Positions 5,023 through 57,830 of a stretch of DNA of 64,000 nt are shown one piece after another. The position numbers and the translations under genes were made by a program. Numbering within the stretch: position 1 is the first letter of the stretch; each line of letters begins with the position of its first letter. Origin of the DNA: Diadophis punctatus similis (Eukaryota; Chordata; Lepidosauria; Squamata; Dipsadidae); NCBI GenBank assembly GCA_023053685.1, contig JALIGW010000010.1, forward strand, positions 8,907,012-8,971,011, read 5' to 3'. Below the pieces are notes generated by a model. It did not search any database and had not been told where the DNA came from. It saw only the letters and a program-made list of their open reading frames with translations.

Positions 5023-5284
5023 CAAAAATACAAAAAGCTTCTTTGCTTGCAAAAAGGTGCCCTAAATACCAATCATTAGATTAGAAATACCTGCAAGCTG
5101 GAGTTACAAATCAGGCGGGGTGCTAGAGCACCTTGAGGAATTAAAATAGTTAAAATGATAACTATCAGCAGACAACTCTTGCTCATAAAGTGAAACCCTT
5201 TAGCAGAGAGGTTATTTAAGCTCTCCAGAAAGAGCACACCCAGGAGAAGCAATCCTTAGATCCATTTGCACCACTTAAAGATCA

Positions 5285-5585
5285 GGGGTGGGTTCCAAAT
5301 TTTTTTTTTGCTACCACTCTGTGGGCGTGGCTTATTTTGTGGGTGTGGCGTGATGGTCATGTGATGGTCATGGGCGTGGCTTTGTGGTCATGTGACTGGG
5401 TGGGAGTGGTTTGGCAGTCATGTGACTGGGGGAGTGGCTTTGCGGTCATGTGACTGGGTGGGGGTTGCTGGGTGGTCATTGTGACTGGGTGGTCATGTGA
5501 CTGGGTAGGTGTGGCCAACTTGACGTCACTCACATCAAGGGTTAGGGTTAGGGTGCCTGGCCTCTCTTCGCCTCAAAGGCCTCAA
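5285..5585. repeat. hAT-A type segment with degenerate GGTCATGTGACTGGGTGG repeats
   Basis: Starts with CAGGGGTGGGTTCCAAATTTT and continues with at least six degenerate units combining GTGGGxGTGGCTT and GGTCATGTGAC. The right end is unclear. Same family as 52,747-53,050. Confidence 0.7.
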
Positions 5586-5644
5586 CGAGATTCAATTTCC
5601 CTGTCTATTTACTACTACTGAACATCCAAAATATACTATTTAAT

Positions 5645-5755
5645 CCTACGTATATATGCATATGTGTACATACATATTACACACAGGCACACAAAAAGAT
5701 ACATTATCTACTATATATACTGTATGTGTATGTACACACACACACACACACACAG
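5645..5755. repeat. TA/CATA-rich stretch and (CA)n microsatellite
   Basis: Alternating TATATGCATATG-like sequence followed by about nine CA units ending near 5,753. Confidence 0.9.
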
Positions 5756-5939
5756 CTCTTCTAAAACTACACATTCAACCTCACTTACTGCATTTGGAAA
5801 AACACACCCAAGTCCACTTTCTGCCACACATTTAACCATAATCTCTGTACATTAGAACATTACACATGCCTTCAGATGTTCTTCCCTAGCTTGCACATCA
5901 CTGTTAGAGCCAGGAAATGTCATGGATTGAGTAAAATGT

Positions 5940-6025
5940 GGTGAAACTCACTTAACAACGCTCTTGCTTAGCAACCAAAATTTTGGGCTCAATTGTGGTC
6001 ATAAGTCAAGGACTATCTCTGCCTT
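5940..6025 (-). mobile_element. Mariner-like MITE remnant
   Basis: Contains the ACTCACTTAACAA ... TTTTGGGCTCAATTGTGGTCATAAGTCAAGGAC part found near the right end of the 50,767-51,150 element. Only this terminal segment survives. Confidence 0.7.
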
Positions 6026-6239
6026 CCTCTGCATGGCAGCCTTGTCCTAGTAAACTCCTTCTCCTTTCTGGCAATTTTCCTCTCTGTTAGAGGCACCAAA
6101 ATAATCCAGACAATTTAAGTTTTCCTGCTACAGCACGGGGTTGGACTAGATGACCTCCAAGATATCTTCCAGCCCTAAATTGCTGTGCTGTTTCAAAGTG
6201 TCTCCTGAAGCCACATCTAGTGGCAGGGTTTGTGGTGCT

Positions 6240-6608
6240 TCCTTCCTCTTCTTCCTTTCTCTTTCTCTTTCTCTCTCTCTCTTCTCCCTCCCTCCCTCCC
6301 TTCCTTCCTTCCTTCCTTCCTTCCTTCCTTCCTTCCTTCCTTCCTTCCTTCCTTCCTTCCTTCCTTCCTTCCTTCCTTCCTTCCTCTTTCTTTTTCTTTC
6401 TCCTTCTTTCTCTTTTTCTTTCTCTTTCTCTGTATTTCTCTTTCTTTCTTTCTTTCTCTTTCTCTTTCTCTATCTCTTTTTCTTTGTTTCTCTTTCTCTC
6501 TCCCTTCCTTCCTCTTTTTCTTTTTCTTTTTCTTTTTCTTTTTCTTTTTCTTTTTCTTTTTCTTTTTCTTTTTCTTTTTCTTTTTCTTTTTCTTTTTCTT
6601 TTTCTTTT

Positions 6609-6673
<65 letters not shown>

Positions 6674-6693
6674 CTTGTCTCTCTCTTTCTTTC
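6240..6693. repeat. 450-bp polypyrimidine compound microsatellite
   Basis: Successive blocks of CTTT/CTCT, TTCC (about 6,290-6,385), mixed TTTC, then a perfect TTTTTC hexamer array (about 6,515-6,610) and a CT dinucleotide array (about 6,612-6,667). The long open frames here are repeat artefacts. It sits directly beside the dispersed repeat that begins at 6,694, as a similar tract does at 53,745-54,131. Confidence 0.95.
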
Positions 6694-7480
6694 TTAATAC
6701 CCTATATGAGCCCTACGGATTGATATAAGTGGATTTTATTCATATGTATCTTCAAGTGATCTGCTACCTCTGCTATAAGGAGTATGCCAGCAAAGGATTT
6801 AGAAGTCTTGGATACCTTAACAATTGAATGGTTAATATCATGGAGGTAATAAAAATGATGCAGGAGGCACATTAAATCATTTGGTGTTTTTTGTTAGTTT
6901 AGGTCAGGAATCAATAACAACAACAACAACAACAACAACAAAAGAGTTGGAAGGGACCTTGGAGGTCTTCTAGTCCAACCCCCTGCTTAGGCAAGAAACC
7001 CTACACCACTTCAGACAAATGGTTATCCAACATCTTCTTAAAAACTTCCAGTGTTGGAGCATTCACAACTTCTGGAGGCAAGCTGTTCCACTGATTAATT
7101 GTTCTAACTCTCAGGAAATTTCTCCTTAGTTCTAAGTTGCTTCTCTCCTTTTTTAATTTCCACCCATTGCTTCTTGTTCTACCCTCAGGTGCTTTGGAGA
7201 ATAGTTTGATTCCCTCTTCTTTGTGGCAACCCCTGAGATATTGGAACACTGCTATCATGTCTCCCCTAGTCCTTCTTTTCATTAAACTAGACATACCCAG
7301 TTCCTGCAACTGTTCTTCATATGTTTTAGCCTCCAGTCCCCTAATCACCTTAAACATTCAAAGAGCCATTTGGACCCTTTTTCCACAGAAAACTCCCACC
7401 CGGTCACATGAACCCCTTAACATTCTTATTCCTTCCTTCCTTCCATCCTCCCTTCTGATTTTACCTCCCTTCCTTTCTTT
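6694..7480 (+). repeat. Dispersed repeat, copy 1 (split by CR1)
   Basis: The 6,694-6,911 part and the 7,349-7,480 part together match 54,132-54,480 closely, from TTAATACCCTATATGAGCCC through AACAATTGAATGGTTAATATC to CTCAAAGAGCCATTTGGACCC. In this copy a CR1 3' fragment interrupts the match; the other copy shows the uninterrupted site. The second part resembles the end of a hAT element whose terminus is CAxGxGTCAGCAAxCTT. Confidence 0.85.
6912..7348 (-). mobile_element. CR1 LINE 3' fragment with (TTG)n tail
   Basis: On the minus strand it encodes the CR1 ORF2 C-terminus (motifs [46 protein letters not shown]), then a GGTTGGACTAGAAGACCTCCAAGG-like 3' UTR and a TTG repeat tail (AAC on plus, 6,916-6,940). 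The tail differs from the TGTAATC tail of the other CR1 copies here, so it belongs to a different subfamily. 5'-truncated, non-functional. Confidence 0.9.
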
Positions 7481-7600
7481 CTCTTTCTCTTTCTCTTTCT
7501 CTTTCTTTCTCCCTTCCTCTTTCTTTGTCTGTCTGTCTGCCTGTCTGTCTGCCTCTCGCTCTCTGTGTCTCTCTCTCTCTCTCACACACACACTGCATGA
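7425..7600. repeat. Compound microsatellite TTCC/CTTT/GTCT/CT/CA
   Basis: Successive short arrays of TTCC, CTTTCT, GTCTGTCTGC, CTCT and CACA. Equivalent sequence near 54,490-54,540 is much shorter. Confidence 0.9.
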
Positions 7601-7796
7601 TTGCAGGCAGGCAGCTAGCTCCATTGTTTAATAGGCTCTAAGTAAAATTTCTACATTAACAAAATTTATACCTAAACAACAGAATATAGGAGCAAAAAAT
7701 CATAGTAATAGTCTGAGCTGTCCTTCTTCCCACCTCCCCCCCTCGCTTCCTTTTGCTTTCAGGGTGGGAGGGAAAACCAAATAAAAACGGGAAGGA

Positions 7797-7885
7797 CAGA
7801 AAATGGTGCCTGGTTGCAAAATAGGAGAAAGGCATTTTTCAGCTGAAAAATGCCCTTCTCCTATTTTGCAGCCATGCACCATTTC
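7797..7885. repeat. Near-perfect 80-bp palindrome
   Basis: AAATGGTGC ... CAGCTG ... GCACCATTT with the centre at the TTTTCAGCTGAAAA sequence near 7,842. Arms of about 40 bp with few mismatches. It lies inside sequence I cannot classify and may be the core of a small foldback element. Confidence 0.8.
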
Positions 7886-7913
7886 TGGGACTGAAAAGTT
7901 GAGGGGACCGAAG

Positions 7914-8558
7914 CAGGGATGGGTTCTAACTTACCTCTCTGCTGGCTTGCTTCCTCAAGATGGCGACCGCATGCACAGTGCTGGAAACTCAGCTTTTGCA
8001 CATGCTCAGAAGAAAAATTAAATAAAAAATTAAATTAAATTAAATAAAAATTAAATTCAAAACAATATATATTAAAAAGAAAGCCGAAAACAAGATGGCA
8101 ACCACATGCACAGTGCCGGAAACTCGGCTTCTGTACATGCTCAGAAGAAAAATAAATAAATAAATAAATTAAATTAAATTAAAAAAAAATTAAAAAGAAA
8201 AAAGAAAGCCGAGAACAAGATGACAACTGCATGCACAGTGCCGGAAACTCGGCTTCTGCACATGCTCAGAAGAAAAATAAAATAAATAAATAAATTAAAT
8301 TGAATTTAAAAAAAATAAAAAATAAAAAAGAAAGCCGAAAACAAGATGGCAACCGCATGCACATTGCCGGAAACTTGGCTTCTGCACATGCCCAGAAGAA
8401 AAAAAATTCAATTTTTTTTTGAAAAAAATTCAAAAAAAAGATGGCAGTGCCCATGGACCAGCACCGACCGATCTGGTTTGGTGACATCGTCGTGATGTCA
8501 CCAGCGAGTCACTACCAGTTTGGGTGAACCGGTCCGAATCGGGAGGAATCCACCCCTG
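7914..8558. mobile_element. hAT MITE with internally amplified module
   Basis: Ends CAGGGATGGGTTCTAACTTACC / GGAGGAATCCACCCCTG match those of the element at 56,007-56,307. Inside, a module with ACAAGATGGC-AACC-ATGCACAGTGCCGGAAACTC and a CATGCTCAGAAG stretch, followed by an AAATAA/AAATT-rich linker, is repeated about four times (near 7,955, 8,085, 8,207, 8,330), against once in 56,007-56,307. Immediate flanks do not match (GACCGAAG, TGAGACTC), so no TSD is claimed. Confidence 0.8.
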
Positions 8559-9187: not shown

Positions 9188-9592
9188 CAGAGGTGGGTTT
9201 GCGTGCGACCACTCCGGAGACCTCTCTGCCGGTCCACCACGCGCATCGCCATTTTTTCCCGTTGATTTTGGGTCGATTTTGCTTCTGCGCATGCGTGGAA
9301 GCAAAATCACGCCAAAATCTCATGAGGGGATGCGCGCGCGAGAGAGATTTCGGTGAGATTTTGCTTCTGCACATGCGCGGAAGCAAAATTGCGCCAAAAT
9401 CTCGTGCGCACGCCCATCCCTGCATAAGATTTTGGCGCGACTTTGCTTCAGCGCATGCGCAGAGGCAAAATCGTGCGAGGGGGCGTGCGTGCATAGGAAG
9501 CGCGCACGCACCCAAAGCGAGCGCGCCCACGCCCGAAGCGTGGAGATGCGCATGCAGCGCACTGGCACCGGTAAGAGAGCAACCCGCCGCTG
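9188..9592. mobile_element. hAT MITE, TSD AATGTAAY
   Basis: Ends CAGAGGTGGGTTT / AACCCGCCGCTG; AATGTAAC (9,180-9,187) and AATGTAAT (9,593-9,600) flank it. The interior holds three GCTTCxGCxCATGCGxxGAxGC palindromes alternating with GCGCCAAAATCTC segments and is CpG-rich. The small open frames here are by-products of the repeats. Confidence 0.85.
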
Positions 9593-15463: not shown

Positions 15464-15765
15464 CAGGGGTGAAATCCTCCCGGTTCGCCCGGGCCAGTCC
15501 TTCGGCGTATAGCCGATGGAACTGGCGGCGGTCGCGGCGCGGAGCTTCTCCCGCCCCCTTTCCCGGCCCGGCTGAACACAAACATTCGGGTTATTTTTCC
15601 CTCTGTGCATGCGCGCGCATGCACAGAGGGAAAAATAACCCGAATGGCGGTGTTCAGCCGGGCCGGGAAAGCGGGCGGGAGAAGCTCCGCGCCGCGACCG
15701 CCGCCAGTTCCATCGGCTATACGCCGAAGGACTGGCCCGGGCGAACCGGGAGGATTTCACCCCTG
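15464..15765. mobile_element. Near-perfect palindromic hAT MITE, TSD GGTTAAAT
   Basis: A 302-bp element in which the two 150-bp halves are reverse complements with about four mismatches, centred on GTGCATGCGCGCGCATGCAC near 15,613. GGTTAAAT is duplicated exactly at 15,456-15,463 and 15,766-15,773. Open frames of about 100 codons on both strands are mirror images caused by the palindrome, not genes. The low arm divergence suggests a young insertion. Confidence 0.93.
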
Positions 15766-29845: not shown

Positions 29846-29917
29846 CCCATTTTTACTAATTCACTAACAATGCATCGGTTCCATTCATATCCAGCCTGTT
29901 TCAATCCATGTAAACTC
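29846..29917 (-). pseudogene. Copia reverse transcriptase, 24-codon middle piece
   Basis: Reads LHGLKQAGYEWNR, the Copia LYGLKQA motif, between the L3-like LINE and the Gypsy element. Short but unambiguous because it joins the flanking RT pieces in frame. Confidence 0.88.
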
Positions 29918-32697
29918 CTGCCCCGGAGATTGTTGGGTGTGAGACGCTCCTTTTGAAGTTGGACTTAGGGGTACAGGTGGGCCTTTTCTTAACGTACCTG
30001 CCTCCCAGCTGCGTAAGCAAGGCCCTGCCTGAGCTGCTCGAGGCAGTAGCCGGCTTGGCAGTTGAGTTCCCCAGGCTTATGGTGCTGGGGGACTTCAACT
30101 TGCCATCTGCCGGCGAAACCTCTGGGGCGGCCCAGGAGTTCATGGATTCCATGACAACCATGGACCTGTCCCAAGTAATCCAGGGTCCGACTCATGAGGG
30201 CGGTCACATGCTCGACCTAGTGTTTCTTTCGGGGCAGTGGAGAGATGATCTGAAGATAAGGGACTTAGTCATCACCCCACTGTCATGGTCAGATCATTTC
30301 CTACTGAGGTTGGATTTCGCAGCCCCATTCCTCCCCCGCAGGGAGGCGGGACCGACTAGGTGGTTCCGCCCCAGGCGCCTAATGGAACCGGAAGGATTCC
30401 AGAGGGAACTTGGGGAAATACCTGAAACCCTGGTACACAATTCGGCTGACTCCCTGGTGGCTGCCTGGAACACCGCAGCATCAGGGGCTCTAGACCGAAT
30501 TGCGCCTAAGCGACCTCTCTATGGCAGTGGATTCCGGAAAGCTCCCTGGTTTACCGAGGAGCTCCGGGAGATGAAATGCCAGAAGAGACGTCTGGAGCGC
30601 CGCTGGAGGGCCAGAAAAACCGAGTCTGATCGAACACTATTAAGAATTTACATCAAATCTTATTTAGTGGCGATAAGGGCGGCAAAACAATCCTATTTTT
30701 CTGCTCTTATTGCGTCCGCAGATTCTCGCCCAGCCGCCTTGTTTAGGGTGACTCGCTCCCTCCTTGCTAAAGGGGGGAGCGAGGAACACTTACAAGGCAG
30801 AGCTGAGGAATTCGCTGAGTTTCTGTCGGATAAAGTCGCTCAGATTCGGTCAAATCTGGACTCCGGCTGGGCAGAGTCCATTGAGTTGACAGGGGCTAGT
30901 CTTAGTCCATCATTATGGGAAGAGTTTGGGTCTGTTTCTCCCGAGGATGTGGACAGGGCTGTGGGAGCGATGGGTACCTCCACCTGTTTATTGGACCCGT
31001 GCCCCTCCTGGCTGGTTTCGGCTAGCAGGGAGGTAGCACGCGGCTGGATCCAGGTGGTGGTCACCGCTTCTTTGAGAGAGGGATCCGTACCGCAGTCGTT
31101 AAAAGCTGCGGTGGTGCGACCCCTCCTGAAGAAGCCTTCCCTGGATCCAGCCGACTTGAAGAACTATCGTCCGGTCTCCAACTTACCTTTTTTAGGGAAA
31201 GTTGTGGAGAAGGTGGTGGTTACTCAACTTCTGCAGCTCCTGGATGAAACAGATCATCTAGATCCTTATCAGTCGGGTTTCAGGCGCAGCTACAGTACAG
31301 AAACTGCCTTGGTCGCTCTGATGGATGATCTCTGGCGGGCCCGGGATGGGGGGAACTCCTCCATCCTGGTGCTACTTGACCTCTCAGCGGCTTTCGATAC
31401 CATCGACCATGGTATCCTTCTGCATCATCTCAGCGAGTTGGGAGTGGGAGGCACCGTTTTGCGGTGGTTCTCCTCTTATCTCGCTGATAGGATGCAGTCG
31501 GTGCTGGCAGGGGGGCAGAGATCGTCCCCTAGGCCCCTATCATGTGGGGTGCCTCAGGGGTCGGTTCTCTCGCCCATCCTGTTCAACATCTACATGAAAC
31601 CGCTGGGTGAGATCATTTGCAGACATGGGGTGTGTTTCCATCAGTACGCTGATGACACCCAGCTGTACATCACCACCCCGTCTGACTTCAGTGAGGCAGT
31701 TGATGTAATGTGCCGGTGCCTGGACGACGTTAGGATCTGGATGGGGAGGAACAGACTCAGACTTAATCCCGACAAGACTGAGTGGCTGTGGATATTGCCT
31801 CCTAAGGACTATGACAACTGTCCCTCCTTGGTCCTTGAGGGAGCGAAATTGACTCCCTCGGACCAGGTCCGCAACTTGGGGGTCCTTCTAGATCCACAGC
31901 TAAAATTGGACAATCATCTTTCTGCTGTGGCTAGAGGGGCCTTTGCACAGGTTCGCCTGGTGCACCAGTTGCGGCCATATTTGGAGAAGGAGGCTCTACT
32001 CACGGTCACTCATGCCCTTGTCACCTCTCGTTTGGACTACTGCAATGCGCTCTACATGGGGCTACCCTTGAAGAGTATCCGGAGACTTCAGTTGGTGCAA
32101 AATGTGGCTGCGCGTGCTGTGGTGGGTGTGCCAAGGTATACCCACGTGACATCGATACTCCGCCAGCTGCATTGGTTGCCCATCGGTCTCCGGGTCCAAT
32201 TCAAGGTGTTGATTACCATCTTTAAAGCCCTTCATGGCTTGGGACCAGGTTATCTACGGGACCGCATTCTGCCTCATACTTCCCTTCGACCGGTTAGGGC
32301 CCACAGAGTTGGTCTCCTCCAGGTCCCGTCGGCCAAGCAATGCCGGCTGGCGGGCCCAAGGGGGAGAGCCTTCTCTGTGGCTGGCCCTGTGCTCTGGAAC
32401 CAACTTCCGCCAGAGACCCGAACTATCCCCACTCTGCTGGCCTTCCGGAAAGCTGTTAAGACATGGCTTTTCCTGCAGGCGGGGGGTAGAGCTTAATTCA
32501 CTCGAGCTCACCCCCCAAGTATGTATGATATTGAATGGTTGGTGATGATTTCTATATTATGTTTTAATTTTTATATTTGCTTTTAATTAACTTTTTAGAT
32601 TTTGGTTATTCTTGTATTTTCTCACTGTTGTACGCCGCCCTGAGTCCTTAGGGAGTTGGGCGGCATATAAGAATTCCAAAATAAATAAATAAATAAA
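29918..32697 (+). mobile_element. L3-like CR1 LINE, 5'-truncated, TSD TAAACTC
   Basis: 2.78 kb with a continuous ORF2 segment and a 3' UTR ending in CGCCGCCCTGAGTCC / GGGCGGCATATAAG, which can form a stem, then an AATAAATA tail. TAAACTC occurs at 29,911-29,917 and 32,698-32,704, where the Copia RT frame stops and resumes. L3-like refers to the CR1-clade L3 lineage, judged from the GVPQGSVLSPILFNIYMKPLG and HQYADDTQLY motifs. Confidence 0.9.
29953..32496 (+). CDS. L3-like LINE ORF2p, 847 codons open (endonuclease C-part, RT)
   Basis: The protein copies LINE RNA by target-primed reverse transcription. Residues about 1-120 are the C-terminal half of an APE-type endonuclease (VLGDFNLPS, then SDHFLL with the catalytic Asp-His). 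A basic linker follows, then RT at about 400-660: KNYRPVSNLPFLGKVVEKV, LLDLSAAFDTIDH, CGVPQGSVLSPILFNIYMKPLG and the catalytic HQYADDTQLY. The C-terminal region ends PPETRTIPTLLAFRKAVKTWLF. The endonuclease N-terminus is missing because of 5' truncation, so the first Met is internal and the copy cannot be autonomous. An 847-codon frame without a stop indicates recent insertion. Confidence 0.93.
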   Translation: MKLDLGVQVGLFLTYLPPSCVSKALPELLEAVAGLAVEFPRLMVLGDFNLPSAGETSGAAQEFMDSMTTMDLSQVIQGPTHEGGHMLDLVFLSGQWRDDLKIRDLVITPLSWSDHFLLRLDFAAPFLPRREAGPTRWFRPRRLMEPEGFQRELGEIPETLVHNSADSLVAAWNTAASGALDRIAPKRPLYGSGFRKAPWFTEELREMKCQKRRLERRWRARKTESDRTLLRIYIKSYLVAIRAAKQSYFSALIASADSRPAALFRVTRSLLAKGGSEEHLQGRAEEFAEFLSDKVAQIRSNLDSGWAESIELTGASLSPSLWEEFGSVSPEDVDRAVGAMGTSTCLLDPCPSWLVSASREVARGWIQVVVTASLREGSVPQSLKAAVVRPLLKKPSLDPADLKNYRPVSNLPFLGKVVEKVVVTQLLQLLDETDHLDPYQSGFRRSYSTETALVALMDDLWRARDGGNSSILVLLDLSAAFDTIDHGILLHHLSELGVGGTVLRWFSSYLADRMQSVLAGGQRSSPRPLSCGVPQGSVLSPILFNIYMKPLGEIICRHGVCFHQYADDTQLYITTPSDFSEAVDVMCRCLDDVRIWMGRNRLRLNPDKTEWLWILPPKDYDNCPSLVLEGAKLTPSDQVRNLGVLLDPQLKLDNHLSAVARGAFAQVRLVHQLRPYLEKEALLTVTHALVTSRLDYCNALYMGLPLKSIRRLQLVQNVAARAVVGVPRYTHVTSILRQLHWLPIGLRVQFKVLITIFKALHGLGPGYLRDRILPHTSLRPVRAHRVGLLQVPSAKQCRLAGPRGRAFSVAGPVLWNQLPPETRTIPTLLAFRKAVKTWLFLQAGGRA

Positions 32698-51414: not shown

Positions 51415-52738
51415 TCACAACCTCCATAGGCAAGCTGCTCTCACTGTCAGAAAGTTTCTCCTTATTTCCAGGTTGAATCTCTCCTTAGTCAGTTTCCATC
51501 CATTGTTCCTTGTCTGGCCTTCTGGTGCCTTGGAAAACAGCCTGACCCCCTCCTCTCTGTGGTAGCCCCTCAAGTATTGGAACACTGCTATCATGTCTCC
51601 CCTGGTCCTTCTCTTCGCTAGACTGGCCATGCCCAGTTCTTGCAACCGCTCTTCGTATGTTATAGTTTCCAGTCCCTTAATAATCCTGGTTGCTCTCCTC
51701 TGCACTTTCTCTAGAGTTTCAATGTCTTTTTTGTAGTGTGGTGACCAAAACTGGATGCAGTACTCTAGGTGTGGTCTAACTAAGGCTTTATAGAGTGGTA
51801 TTAGTACCACCCTAGTCCTAGATTGTATCCCTCTATTATTGCAATTTAGGATTGCATTGGCTATTTTGGCTGCCGCTGCACACTGCTGGCTCATGTTTAG
51901 CTGGTTGTCTACTAAGACTCCAAGATTCCTCTCGCAGTCACTGCTATTGAGTGTGGTTTCACTCAGTTTATATGTATATTTTTTGTTTTTCTTACCTAAG
52001 TGCAGGACTTTACTTTTCTCTGCATTGAATTACATTTTATTAGATAGGGCCCAGTGTTCAAGTCAGTCAAGATCCATCTGGATCTTGAGCCTGTCCTCTG
52101 GGGTGTTAGCTATTCCTGCCAGCTTAGTATCATCTGCAAATTTGGTTAGTTCCCCTTCTATTCCCTCATCTAGGTAATTTATGAAGATATTAAAGAGTAC
52201 TGGGCCTAAGACGGAACCCACTGCTTACTTCTCTCCATGTAGACTTAGACCCATTGAGGACTACTCGTTGAGTATGGTTAGTCAGCCAGTTGTTAATCCA
52301 TCTGGTCGTGTAGCTGCCTATCACACTTTTTTCTAGTTTATGAAGAAGTAGGTTGTGGTCTACTTTGTCAAATGCTTTGCTGAAGTCTAAGTATATTATG
52401 TCCACAGTATTTCGCTGGTCTACTAATTTAGTCACAGTGTTGAAGAATGAAATGAGATTAGTTTGGCATGATTTATTCTTAACAAACCCATGTTGGCTGC
52501 TGGTTATTACTTTGCTTGTTTCTAGGTGATGGCAGATCTGTTTTTTAATTATCTTTTCCAGTATTTTCCTGGGTATTGATGTAAGGCTGATTGGTCTGTA
52601 GTTACCTGGGTATATTTTTTTTTCCTTTTTTGAAGATGGGAACCACATCAGCTCTTTTCCAGTTCTCAGGTAGTTCCCCTGTGTTCCAGGATTTTTGGAA
52701 GATGTGGTGCAGTGGTTCTGAGATGACATCTGCTAGCT
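51415..52738 (-). pseudogene. CR1 ORF2: RT second half and C-terminus
   Basis: 52,190-52,729: YPGNYRPISLTSIPRKILEKII, QHGFVKNKSCQTNL and YLDFSKAFDKVDH. 51,900-52,190 (frame-broken) contains the catalytic [10 protein letters not shown]. 51,415-51,894: [21 protein letters not shown] and the [17 protein letters not shown]-terminus. Two or more frameshifts. Confidence 0.92.
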
Positions 52739-52746
52739 CCTTTAGA

Positions 52747-53060
52747 CAGGGGTGGGTTCCAATTTTTTACTACCACTCTGTGGGTGTGGCTTAATTTTGT
52801 GGGTGTGGCTTAATTTTGTGGGTATGGCTTAATTTTGTGGGAGTGGCTTTATGGTTATATGACCGTGTGGGAGTGGCTTGATGGTCATGTGACCAGGTGG
52901 GAGCAGCTTCGTGGTCATGTGAATGGGTGGGCGTGGCTTCATGGTCATGTGACTCAGCAGGCAAGGCTTGGTGGTCATGTGAATGGGTGGGCGTGGCCAA
53001 CTCAATGTCACTCACATCAAGGGGTGCCTCGCCTGGCCCCTCCCCTCCCAGCCATTCCTT
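52747..53060. repeat. hAT-A left part with GTGGCTT/GGTCATGTGA repeats
   Basis: About eight degenerate units of GTGGGxGTGGCTT with GGTCATGTGA. The same sequence follows the hAT end at 5,285. Confidence 0.8.
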
Positions 53061-53139
53061 GTCACACCCAGCCTCAACGAATCTACAGTTCTGTAAAAAT
53101 GTTGTTCACCTTTTTTCAAATTTATTATCTACATACTAT

Positions 53140-53425
53140 AGATGTACTTTCATGGACCACTGAAAGGAGGAAATGGCTCACATGCTTTGCCCAAGAGTGT
53201 GATAGGCAACAGGCTTTTAAGGGGCTGCCAGAAAAAAGGGGGCAATGTATTTTCCAAAGCACCAGAAGGCAAAACAAGAAGCAATGGATGGAAACTGAAC
53301 AAAGAGAGAAGCAACCTAAAACTAAGGAGAAACTTCCTGACAGTGAGAACCAATTTCGCCGCCCTGAGTCCTTCGGGAGTTGGGCGGCATATAAGAATAA
53401 CAAAATAAATAAATAATAAATAAAT
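53140..53425 (+). mobile_element. Chimeric fragment: CR1 ORF2 end joined to L3-like 3' tail
   Basis: 53,200-53,347 is CR1 (GCCAGAAAAAAGGGGGCAAT ... CTTCCTGACAGTGAGAACC). At about 53,350 it switches to the L3-like terminal stem CGCCGCCCTGAGTCC / GGGCGGCATATAAG and AATAAATA tail. CR1 does not resume after the tail, so this is not a simple nested insertion. Confidence 0.8.
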
Positions 53426-53744
53426 TTAGGTGCAGAAATATTTCAGTCATAATTTCAGATTTAAAATAGCCATTCGTGTAATACAACCTGCATATTGTTC
53501 AAAACAGTAATTAGTATTATGGCTGATGTGGCTAATTATGGAATAGCATATTAAGCTGGACTTATGCAACCTGATGTACAAAATAAATACACACATATTT
53601 ATGCTCTGGACCATAGACTTTGAATGCATGTAAATCCCTGAAAAATATGTGATAGCCCTGGAAAAAGAAAGGCAGTAAAATCACTCTACGTGTAAAATAG
53701 TATAAAATATTAACACATGATAAATAATGGAACAATTAAAAATA
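53426..53744. other. AT-rich, no feature seen
   Basis: No repeat or open frame recognised. Confidence 0.5.
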
Positions 53745-54131
<387 letters not shown>

Positions 54132-54480
54132 CTTAATACCCTATATGAGCCCTAATGATTGATATAAGTGGATTTTATTCATATGTATCTTTATGTGATC
54201 TGCTACCTCTGCTATAAGGAGTATGCCAGCAAAGGATTTAGAAGTCTTGGATACCTTAACAATTGAATGGTTAATATCATGGAGGTAATACAAATGATGC
54301 AGGAGGCACATTAAATCATTTTTTTGTTAGTTTAGGTCAAGAGTCAGCAATCTTAAACACTCAAAGAGCCATTTGGACCCATTTTCTACAGAAAACAAAA
54401 CATCGAGAGCCACAAAACCTGGGTGGGCATGGCCAACCCAACATCATACACTCCTACCCAGTCACATGAACCCCCTTCAC
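54132..54480 (+). repeat. Dispersed repeat, copy 2 (uninterrupted)
   Basis: Match of 6,694-6,911 plus 7,349-7,480 without the CR1 insertion. A hAT-like end CAAGAGTCAGCAATCTTAAACACTCAAAGAGCC-type sequence begins at 54,338. Confidence 0.85.
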
Positions 54481-54539
54481 ATCCTTATTCCTTCCTTCCT
54501 TCCATCCTCCCTCATGATTTTACCTTCCTTCCTTTCCTT

Positions 54540-55829
54540 TCGGCAACTGGAAGCTTCTCACACCAGCAAAGACCGACAGCTGCAGGCTTCTTGCACCAGC
54601 AAAGAGGTAGCAGCTGCAGGCTTCTCGGTTGGGGGGGGGACACGGCGAGGCTTGGCCACCTTTCGAACCCTGCTCTGGGCTGCCACCTGCTCAACCTCCA
54701 CTCTGCCTCAGGTCCCGCATCCAGCCACAAAGGGACATGCTGCTTCCAGGCCAGCCCGCTTGCTTGGAGCTGGTCTGGAAAGGAAAAAAACGCAGCCGAA
54801 TTAGGCAGGACTCGCCCCACTCTTCCAAGAGCCCGCTTTCTGCAGCGAATGAGCTGGTAGCGTGAAAAGCTCTTCCCCTTACCTGCATGCTGTTTATTAC
54901 TGGGTCTTCACCCCCCTCTGCACCCAAAAAGCGGCCGGTGGCCCCCGGTAGCGGTGTCTTGTTGGTCTTGGGGGGGGGTGCAGAGCTGGTAACAGCATGC
55001 AAGTAGAGGGCTACAACCTGCCTGCCTTTTGGATTTTGCCCTTCTTCTCTCCCCGCCACTCCAGGAAGGAAGCAGCAGCGGCAAATCTTTTTGCGCCCGC
55101 AGCAGTGGGCGATGGCTGGAAATTGCTGGGAGGCTCAGCTCGGGCTCCTTTCCTCCCTTTTCCTGCTTGGGTTTTAGGACACCTTCGTGGAAACCCCACC
55201 ACTGGTCAGCTCACTCGCCTGCCTGCACTCCGGATTCCCCCCTTCCTGGGAGCCCCAGCAGCTTATGTGGGGGGCTGTGGGGTGAGAGCATGAGCACCCT
55301 GAGGGGTGGGAGGTGGCACGCTCCAGGCTGCCTGGCACCCCGGCCGCATCCACGGGGCCGGAGGAGCCGCCAGCTGGGCGGAGCCTCCAGTCACATCACC
55401 AGCCACCTCCGGGATTGCTAAAAATAGAGGCTGGTGGAGGCAGGGAGGGTCTCGGCTGCCCCGCCCAAAGGGTCTGGCCGGGATCTGTCGGGCCCCGCTG
55501 GCCCCTGCGGTGCTCCTGCCACCCACTCCCAGCTACTTTCCCACCACCACCAAACCAGGGCCCTGGTCCCGGTGCCCCTTTGATTGCTCCTGACTGCCGC
55601 GGGGCTTCCCATTTCCAGGAAAGTCTCGGGGAATCTCTCGGTCAGCTGTTGTGAAGAAGCTTTGTTCTCGTTGAGAGCTGCTTTGCAAAGCGGCTCTCAA
55701 AGAGAATGGGGCATGGTGCACCCAGAGCTCCTGCTTCTTTGCAACAGCTGAGCACCTCTTCCACTTGGAACTGCAAGCTGCAGGGAGCGGGGACAGCTGC
55801 AATGACGGCAGCTATGGGGGCTCCTTCCC
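54540..55829. other. GC-rich cargo of unknown origin
   Basis: CpG-rich, with CTGCAGGCTTCTxGCACCAGCAAAGA direct repeats (54,550-54,640) and an inverted AGCTGCTTTGCAAAGCGGCT sequence near 55,677. On the minus strand a frame with TNKTPLPGATGRF and EDPVINSMQ ends at ATGCAG followed by GTAAGG (about 54,885), another possible exon-donor junction. Not recognised as a known gene; it could be intron or flank of the captured locus. Confidence 0.4.
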
Positions 55830-55871
55830 TCAGTCACTGATGGCATCCACCCACCCACCGGGTCTGCTCAC

Positions 55872-55943
55872 CTCCTGAGTTTCAGCATAGTAACTGTTCC
55901 ACTCGCTTGCGTCGTGACCTTCCATTTTCACAGTCCCTAACAT
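55872..55943 (-). pseudogene. Captured FOXA1-like first coding exon
   Basis: On the minus strand a 24-codon segment starts at ATG 55,943 and reads MLGTVKMEGH, then WNSYYAETQE, and is followed at once by GTGAGC, a consensus splice donor. The first coding exon of vertebrate FOXA1, a forkhead pioneer factor, encodes 24 residues beginning in this way; I count about 20 of 24 identical to what I recall of FOXA1, and it fits FOXA1 better than FOXA2 (Thr4, Asn in WNSYY, TQE end). The four changes are Glu/Asp exchanges and one Thr-to-Ala. No forkhead exon is seen in the 55 kb downstream on this strand, and the segment lies inside a hAT-bounded insertion, so it is read as a captured copy and not the gene itself. 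Confidence 0.72.
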
Positions 55944-56006
55944 CCTGGAGTCAACGTGCACGGTGTAACAATTCAGTCCCCTCTTGGCGAGCGCAAGGGA
56001 GGCAGG
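55944..56006 (-). other. Likely captured 5' UTR of FOXA1-like exon
   Basis: Directly upstream of the ATG, ending at the hAT MITE start at 56,007. The frame is open upstream through CYTVHVDSR. It is GC-balanced and unlike the neighbouring repeats. Confidence 0.45.
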
Positions 56007-56307
56007 GGTGGGTTCCAACTTACCTTGCTGCCGCTTTGCTTCCTCTCACAGCGCGTGGCCGCACCCGCGCATGCGCAGTACAAAAAACCCCAATTTTTTT
56101 TAAAAAAATAAAAATGCCAAAAACAAGATAGTGACCACATGCACAGTGCCGGAAACTCGGCTTCTGCGCATGTGCAGAAGAAAAAAAATTCGAAAACATT
56201 TGAATTTTAAAAAAAAATAGATGGTAGCTCCCACGGACCGGCACCGACCGAACCGGGTCGCTACCGGTTCAGGTGAACTGGTCCGAACCAGGAGGAACCC
56301 ACCTCTG
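56007..56307. mobile_element. hAT MITE, one-module form
   Basis: Ends CAGGGGTGGGTTCCAACTTACC / GGAGGAACCCACCTCTG. One copy of the ACAAGATAGTGACCACATGC module that is repeated in 7,914-8,558. Its left flank does not duplicate the right one, consistent with its right end being shared with the outer composite. Confidence 0.8.
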
Positions 56308-57830
56308 TCTTTAGGACTTTGGGATGTAATCCGTCTGGTCCTGGTGATTTGTATTTGTCACGTTCAGAGAGGTGATCTCTTACTGTTATTTTGCTTATGT
56401 TAACTTTTTTTTCCAATCTGTTTTTTGTAGTTGTGTTTCTGGTTAGTTGGGCTGCAGTTTCTTTTTGCGTTAAGACCGATGCAAAGAATGAGTTAAGCAG
56501 CTCTGCTTTGTCTGTGTTGCCTGTTACTTCGTTGCCTTCTTCTCCCTTTAGTGGACCAACTGTTTTCTTGATTTTTTTTCTTGTTATATATGTGTTGGAA
56601 GAAACTTTTTTTATTATCATTGACTTTTGTTGCAAGTCTTTGTTCATTCTGGGCCTTTGCTGTCCTGATTTTTTCTTTACAGATTCTGGCTATCTGTTGA
56701 TACTCTGCCTTAGTTATGTGTCTCTCTTTCCATTTTTTGTATTTGTCCTTTTTTTCATTCAATTTGTCAGTGAGGTCTTTGTGCAGCCATGCTGGTTTCC
56801 TTTTGGGTTTCTTGTTTTTCTTTCTCATCAGTATTGTGCTGTTCTGGGCTTTTTTATAATCGTGTTTTTCAGAGCTTCTTGAGTTGTTTTTCCCTTTAGG
56901 ACTTTCATCCAAGGAATATTTCCCAAGTTTTCTCTGAGTGTATTAAAATCAGCTTTTTTAAAAATCTAAGACTTTGGTATCGTTGTGTTCAATTATTTGT
57001 GTTTGCGTTATGTTGAATTCTAGTATGACGTGGTCACTCTCACCCAACGTTCCTGCAGTTTCAACTCCTTCTATCACTTCTTCTCTGTTTGTCAGTATTA
57101 AGTCCAGTATGGCTGTCCCTCTAGTTCCCTCCTTTACCTTTTGGACAACAAAGTTGTCAGCAAGGTTGGTTAGGAACATATTTGATTTCTCACTTGGTGC
57201 AGAACTAGTTTTCCAGTTGATATCCGGGTAGTTGAAGTCTCCCATTATTACTGCAGTGTGTTTCCTACATATGTTCATTAGTTGGTTGGCAAAAAGAATA
57301 TCCATTTTTTTCTGTTTGATTGGGTGGCCTATAGTATACTCCTATTGTCATGTCATTCTTTTTTTTCTTTTATGTTGATCCATATGCATTATAGGGGGTT
57401 TTCGTCTTTGGTTACATGCAGCTCTGTAGTAACATAGTGGTCCTTTACATACAGTGCAACTCCACCTCCTCTTTTATGTGGTCTGGGTTTTTTTTAAGAG
57501 TTTGTATCCTTCTATCAGTATGTTCCAGTTGTGAGTTTCATCCCACCAAGTTTCTGTTATTCCAACTATGTCGTATCTACCTTCGTGCATTAATATTTCA
57601 AGTTCACACTGTTTATTCCCCAGGTTTGTACATTTGTGTAAAGGCATTTGATATCTTTGTGCTTGATTCTGGGTGTGCTTTCTGTGTCTCCTGTTTGGCG
57701 TTTGAGTTTGTTTTCCTTCCCATTCCTCTTTAGTTCATTATTTGCCTTACTTACTAAGGGTCCTTGCATGGAGTTAGGTCCTGGAGATCCTATAGATTGG
57801 TCACCATCCCCGCTCAATTTTAGTTTAAAG
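56308..57830 (-). pseudogene. CR1 ORF2: endonuclease and RT start
   Basis: 57,590-57,817: ORF2 start with IKCLYTN. 57,310-57,590 (broken frames) has the TWWDETHNW region. 56,958-57,305: AVIMGDFNYPDINW and the SDHVILEF catalytic motif. 56,493-56,912: basic linker. 56,261-56,647: SPGPDGLHPKVLK, the RT entry motif, running into the hAT edge at 56,307. Confidence 0.92.

Follow-up and report, generated by a model that had tools for sequence, protein, structure and literature searches.

The window, by which we mean the whole 64-kb stretch of DNA analyzed here, lies on contig C2 of a 1.78-Gb assembly and contains a 3,561-bp transposable element that carries a short piece of the developmental regulator gene FOXA1. 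The element, its parts and a related copy in the same window are listed below by window position.

52739..52746, no strand: left copy of the target site duplication (TSD), CCTTTAGA, from 8-mer comparison
52747..56307, plus strand: whole non-autonomous hAT-type element with the FOXA1 fragment, 3,561 bp, delimited by matching ends, a restored LINE frame and a TSD of 6/8
52747..52760, plus strand: left terminal repeat CAGGGGTGGGTTCC, 14 bases, from end comparison
52747..53060, plus strand: 5' subterminal region with GGTCATGTGA-type repeats, common to the copy at 5,283
54139..54539, plus strand: middle block, also in the 5,283-8,558 copy (198/205 identical over 54,139-54,343) and in other genome copies
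54540..55834, plus strand: GC-rich interior, family sequence and not FOXA1, present in the FOXA1-less copy C57
55827..55834, plus strand: CCCTCAGT, in insert-free copies the element flank that adjoins the internal terminal repeat
55835..55840, plus strand: CACTGA, a palindromic, P-nucleotide-like extension of the CCCTCAGT flank
55841..55846, plus strand: six-base filler TGGCAT (TGTCAT in two other copies)
55847..56002, minus strand: captured FOXA1 fragment (5'UTR, exon 1 and start of intron 1), ~156 bp, from alignment with the native locus
55847..55871, minus strand: start of FOXA1 intron 1, ~25 bp, with the GTGAGC donor, from alignment with the native locus
55872..55943, minus strand: coding part of FOXA1 exon 1, 24 codons, 72 bp, with three synonymous differences from the native gene
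55944..56002, minus strand: FOXA1 5'UTR, 59 bp, from alignment with the native locus
56003..56016, plus strand: internal terminal repeat CAGGGGTGGGTTCC, directly adjoining the captured fragment
56003..56307, plus strand: unit B, a 305-bp end unit that also recurs in the genome on its own, as solo copies flanked by their own TSDs
56294..56307, minus strand: right terminal repeat, CAGAGGTGGGTTCC, one base off the left end, inverted
56308..56315, no strand: right copy of the TSD, TCTTTAGG, 6/8 bases matching the left copy
5283..8558, plus strand: related FOXA1-less copy, with no matching TSD (3/8)

Deletion of 52,747-56,307 together with one 8-bp flank leaves a single uninterrupted frame, reverse-transcriptase-like, that runs through the join (…KSPGPDGLHPKVLK/ELADVISEPLHHIFQKSW…), and the split LINE is one that we take to be a CR1. 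A first-pass annotation of this DNA had described an insertion with hAT ends and a TSD that splits a CR1; the insertion and its ends are borne out, while the TSD matches at only six of eight positions. The left boundary was placed too far inward in that annotation, as the element starts at 52,747 and 54,540 is an internal junction. We label the element hAT-type on account of its end sequences, which we presume to be hAT-like, and of its 8-bp TSDs. Perfect (8/8) TSDs flank the genome copies C112a, C124, C389 and C397 as well as the solo copies L068 and L069, whereas that of the window copy is imperfect. A Pfam scan of 10 open frames in the GC-rich interior gave no match, with no transposase in the scanned frames. 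Elsewhere in the genome, hAT dimerisation domains were present in all 150 scored sequences among 984 candidates, some of them in long open frames. An Rfam search of 52,700-56,350 and a PDB search with a 147-aa frame gave no matches, and for two frames crossing the element/FOXA1 junctions, a protein search returned no candidate for one and 147 candidates, none with E <= 1, for the other. Two hairpins at 55,636-55,757 and 54,870-55,015 belong to the element family and not to FOXA1.

Several further features were recorded in the window. The copy at 5,283-8,558 contains a hairpin (7790-7895), a near-perfect ~40-bp inverted repeat with a fold z of -10.5, flanked by a pyrimidine tract on one side and by the end unit on the other. 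A 302-bp element at 15464-15765 has the ends CAGGGGTGAAATCC and a perfect 8-bp TSD, GGTTAAAT; with similar frames on both strands, it looks like a fold-back. At 9188-9592 lies a 405-bp CG-rich element with the TSD AATGTAAC/AATGTAAT (7/8), and the plus strand of 29914-32496 holds an 860-aa open frame that, by eye, is LINE reverse transcriptase-like. On its minus strand, the interior of the FOXA1-carrying element has a strong-looking predicted splice acceptor at 54,775 (TTTTTTTCCTTTCCAG) and a donor at 54,883 (CAG followed by GTAAGG); the FOXA1 donor could in principle splice in frame to this predicted acceptor.

The minus-strand reading frame at 55,872-55,943 encodes 24 residues, MLGTVKMEGHDASEWNSYYAETQE, and is followed directly by GTGAGC. 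Searched against PDB with phmmer, the peptide matched residues 1-24 of human FOXA1 (E=5e-9, 20/24 identical). The PDB chain 5a5u_B, named eIF3 subunit B and 1121 residues long, matches FOXA1 with its forkhead domain over the first ~320 residues and is probably a merged gene model. A database query with FOXA1 residues 1-60 yielded 91 proteins, among which only the FOXA1 sequences of two advanced snakes, Agkistrodon contortrix and Erythrolamprus reginae, are identical to the window peptide at 24/24 positions; FOXA1 of Python bivittatus agrees at 22/24. Full identity (24/24) was also found to residues 1-24 of an intact FOXA1 on another contig of the same genome. A check for FOXA1 DNA similarity, as proposed in the first-pass annotation, gave 93.7% identity between the fragment and this native locus over 159 bp (55,844-56,002), spanning exon, 5'UTR and the start of intron 1, and this DNA match excludes chance as the origin of the exon. 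Judged from these comparisons, the exon in the window is genuine FOXA1 exon 1, as had been proposed from its peptide and donor. The forkhead exon, already reported as missing, is absent from the 64-kb window; tblastn with seven proteins and with human FOXA1 1-270 (for which the other rows had E values of 1.7 or worse) found exon 1 as the sole match.

The native gene was located as follows.

C1 275,794,774-275,796,012, minus strand: native FOXA1 exon 2
C1, within the match 275,799,428-275,799,585: native FOXA1 exon 1, from DNA search with the fragment

Both native exons are intact, with exon 1 and its donor as in the window, a 3,448-bp intron 1 and a 435-codon product that is 97.0% identical to that of Agkistrodon and 95.2% to that of Python. 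Because this intact gene sits on C1, the FOXA1 sequence in the window is an extra copy. One might instead suppose that the window holds the native gene itself, with exon 2 beyond its edge, as the fully identical peptide (24/24) and the good donor would allow; however, the real gene is on C1 with its exons 3.4 kb apart and the window copy is part of an insertion that interrupts a LINE, which leaves this reading virtually no credence. The same can be said of a processed pseudogene or other RNA-mediated copy of FOXA1, for which no support was found: the fragment retains the donor and the beginning of intron 1 but lacks exon 2, and this reading is refuted because the fragment contains intron sequence.

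Only ~55,847-56,002 is derived from FOXA1, since copies without FOXA1 carry the remaining interior. The CpG ratio fits this extent, at 0.78 in the exon and UTR versus 0.35-0.47 across the four quarters of the GC-rich block. The assignment of all of 54,540-55,998 to a FOXA1 intron was rejected, as genome copies without FOXA1 carry 54,540-55,834. As far as can be told, there is no sign that the promoter was captured, the upstream FOXA1 DNA consisting of 59 bp of 5'UTR only.

Sister copies preserve the site as it is without the insert. In copy C57, the interior corresponding to 54,543-55,834 continues directly at 56,002. Eleven FOXA1-less copies were aligned at this junction, of which nine read CCCTCAGTG joined to CAGGG, one has a 2-bp deletion and one is broken just before it; the two sides are therefore joined without FOXA1 in 10/11 copies, including the one with the deletion. 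A genome-wide pattern search found the empty junction 14 times exactly and five times with one mismatch, and when up to two mismatches were allowed there were 30 matches versus two for a reversed-pattern control. The internal terminal repeat is already present in sister copies without FOXA1. These data bear on macrotransposition, in which a small hAT element in the 5'UTR of native FOXA1 and another in intron 1 would have moved everything between their outer ends. Such an arrangement was suggested by the layout in the first-pass annotation and would account for the element ends and internal terminal repeat on either side of the fragment. However, the FOXA1 DNA stops after ~25 bp of intron with the rest of the interior being family sequence, the internal repeat occurs in FOXA1-free sister copies, and inspection of the native locus found no hAT element at the breakpoint. 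We consider macrotransposition very improbable.

A search for further copies in the host genome, also suggested at the outset, revealed five element copies at five sites. In the DNA search with the fragment, all six scored candidates were matches, namely the native gene, the window copy and four others designated C362, C112a, C124 and C112b, this count of six being a lower bound. The TSD of the window copy agrees at 6/8 positions, those of C112a (GAGGCAAG) and C124 (CTCCAGAC, read by eye from the flanks) at 8/8 and that of C112b (ATATAGGC/ATATGGGC, likewise read by eye) at 7/8; for C362 (GTTTACCC), the match is 8/8 when the final G of the terminal repeat is included and 5/8 when it is not. Both junctions of the filled site are common to the window copy, C112a and C124, and the left one is kept in C362. 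This left junction is CCCTCAGTCACTGA in the window copy and C362, from which C112a and C124 each deviate by a single base, and the other junction is GGGAGGCAGGGG. C362 and C112b have both lost the internal repeat through a shared 21-bp deletion and are, therefore, uninformative on the right junction. In C112b, the left junction is absent and the interior rearranged: the copy (L040 3417-3847 and leftward) is shorter, with a quite different, apparently rearranged interior and a GGGA-rich tract reaching up to the FOXA1 piece. A further near-match of the filled junction with one mismatch, C154, was dropped because it showed no family sequence by eye.

Two bases differ from the native gene in all five copies, and the window copy and C112a share one more change. 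The common insert, its common junctions where these survive, the five target sites and the two common non-native bases make one capture with later transposition the simplest reading. Counted against it are conflicting variable sites, with one base common to C112a and C124 and another to C124 and C362, and a tree of 15 copies (including four with FOXA1) built from 197 columns of neighboring element sequence. This tree does not unite the four FOXA1 copies, requiring three label changes and recovering them as a single group in 0% of 200 bootstrap replicates, but none of its branches is strongly supported and a single FOXA1 clade is not rejected (p-AU 0.136). Overall, one capture followed by transposition to five sites, that is, a multicopy Pack-hAT, fits the data best. 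The earlier proposal that a DNA transposon captured a promoter-proximal FOXA1 exon is sustained, in view of the intact native gene and the five element copies.

The captured exon has fared differently among the copies. In the window, its three differences from the native gene are all synonymous. C112a is frameshifted by a 7-bp deletion and carries T4I; a stop and D11N are found in C362; C112b, with two missense changes, no longer has the donor; and the frame of C124 stays open, with GTGAGT as donor and five missense changes. With these four copies altered by frameshift, stop, lost donor or five missense changes, there is no sign of selection on the exon, and the intact peptide in the window may simply reflect youth or luck. 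On present sequence evidence, the exon appears to be a passenger, with no sign of use as protein. The suggestion in the first-pass annotation that such an exon could seed chimeric transcripts is a conjecture to be read alongside these alterations in four of the five copies.

The position and structure of the junctions suggest how the fragment was acquired. The insert directly abuts the internal terminal repeat that starts at 56,003. The end unit alone was matched in seven rows of the genome search with starts within five bases of this position, and all four solo copies that were fetched begin at that repeat; their TSDs match at 8/8 positions in two cases, at 7/8 (by eye) in a third and at 6/8 in the fourth. 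Because solo copies with TSDs begin there, the internal repeat is a working left end. On the opposite side of the insert, the CCCTCAGT flank is extended by a palindrome. hAT excision is described as leaving hairpins on the flanking DNA (PMC3878927, PMC4763223), and plant Ds footprints as compatible with a cut at the nucleotide next to the element (PMC1978519). For the empty site CCCTCAGTG, the hairpin expected from a one-nucleotide stagger reads CCCTCAGT-CACTGAGGG. Six bases in a row fit this hairpin in the window copy and C362, and 5/6 fit it in C112a and C124. Among 20 testable trimmings in the window, only the one-nucleotide-stagger geometry gives a run of six, the next best giving one, and random filler reaches a run of at least six in 0.2% of cases.

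A route consistent with these data would begin with a hAT transposase, supplied in trans, cutting at the internal terminal repeat. The flank would be sealed into a hairpin in which one strand is a nucleotide short, and its off-centre opening would generate CCCTCAGT-CACTGA. FOXA1 would then have served as the template for a patch filling the gap, and this patch would have been linked to the terminal repeat, which had stayed intact. The route leaves the six-base filler unexplained. In our assessment, the best explanation, held with good though incomplete confidence, is that a Pack-hAT took up ~156 bp of FOXA1 once, presumably by such a cut, hairpin and patch, and carried it to at least five loci. 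For the insert itself, an origin at a transposase cut is likely, with some reserve because the scar represents one event and six bases.

The principal rival is fork switching, the mechanism put forward by Tan et al. 2021 for multicopy elements, with the palindrome being fold-back synthesis or coincidence. It is favored for multicopy Pack-TIRs in the pertinent passages of that paper (PMC8277862), and the GC-rich, hairpin-rich interior of the element could stall replication forks. However, the position of the breakpoint coincides exactly with a terminal repeat that serves solo elements as an end, and the palindrome shows the one-nucleotide geometry of hAT cleavage. We, therefore, regard fork switching as rather unlikely and prefer the transposase cut.

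Rubin and Levy, in 1997, reportedly dealt with abortive gap repair of Ac/Ds. The passages on plant Ds describe a hairpin on the flank, its off-centre opening and palindromic bases at the repaired site, features that the FOXA1 element has in common with these members of the same hAT superfamily; unlike it, these are plant elements with footprints of a few bases or a deletion and no captured exon (PMC1978519). For animals, the survey by Tan et al. 2021 describes 370 Pack-TIRs in 100 genomes, of which 208 are hAT, the commonest class, and four are multicopy, and it includes a frog hAT that carries CAPSL 5'UTR DNA and occurs on three chromosomes with distinct TSDs (PMC8277862). Since Pack-TIRs have, thus, been described in animals, the FOXA1 capture is of a known kind. 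It resembles them as a TIR element with a copied host fragment and an intact parent gene, and differs in having its breakpoint at an internal terminal repeat with a hairpin-type scar (PMC8277862). In Drosophila, Ssk-FB4 likewise comprises host gene DNA in a non-autonomous element with later copies at distinct TSDs; it contains a nearly whole gene, was judged a Pack-MULE and has evidence of function, in contrast to the 24-codon piece without signs of selection found here (PMC8277862). The features that define a multicopy Pack-TIR are present in this genome: TIR ends at 52,747 and 56,307 bound the FOXA1 DNA, the parent gene is on C1, insert-free relatives exist and five copies have distinct TSDs. 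Genuine capture of the exon and its spread by a hAT-type element are well supported.

In the relevant passages, Tan et al. 2021 argue mostly for transposition-independent gap filling and, in multicopy cases, for fork switching, report breakpoints away from element ends and single-copy cases with internal breakpoints, and argue in part from the missing clean empty sites of multicopy cases (PMC8277862). The main text of that paper makes no mention of hairpin, palindrom or internal TIR, nor of reptile, lizard or squamate, the word 'snake' in its passages denoting the fly gene Snakeskin (PMC8277862). We found no report of a FOXA1 capture or of a snake Pack-hAT in the open-access literature.

Here, a single genome holds empty sites, filled sites, the parent gene and solo end units, together with a junction bearing an apparent enzyme scar. 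It is conceivable, at somewhat less than even confidence, that cutting at internal or cryptic terminal repeats, hairpin opening and patching from open gene starts constitute a regular birth route of animal Pack-hATs. If so, this route would be distinct from fork switching and from the filling of gaps at chance breaks, it would be recognizable genome-wide by a one-nucleotide-stagger palindromic scar beside the captured piece and the scar would have been read for the first time in the FOXA1 element. The element is a clear case of a developmental regulator's coding start and splice donor being carried to new loci, use of the exon not being implied, and the question of how animal DNA transposons acquire host exons becomes one of counting such scars at Pack-TIR breakpoints.
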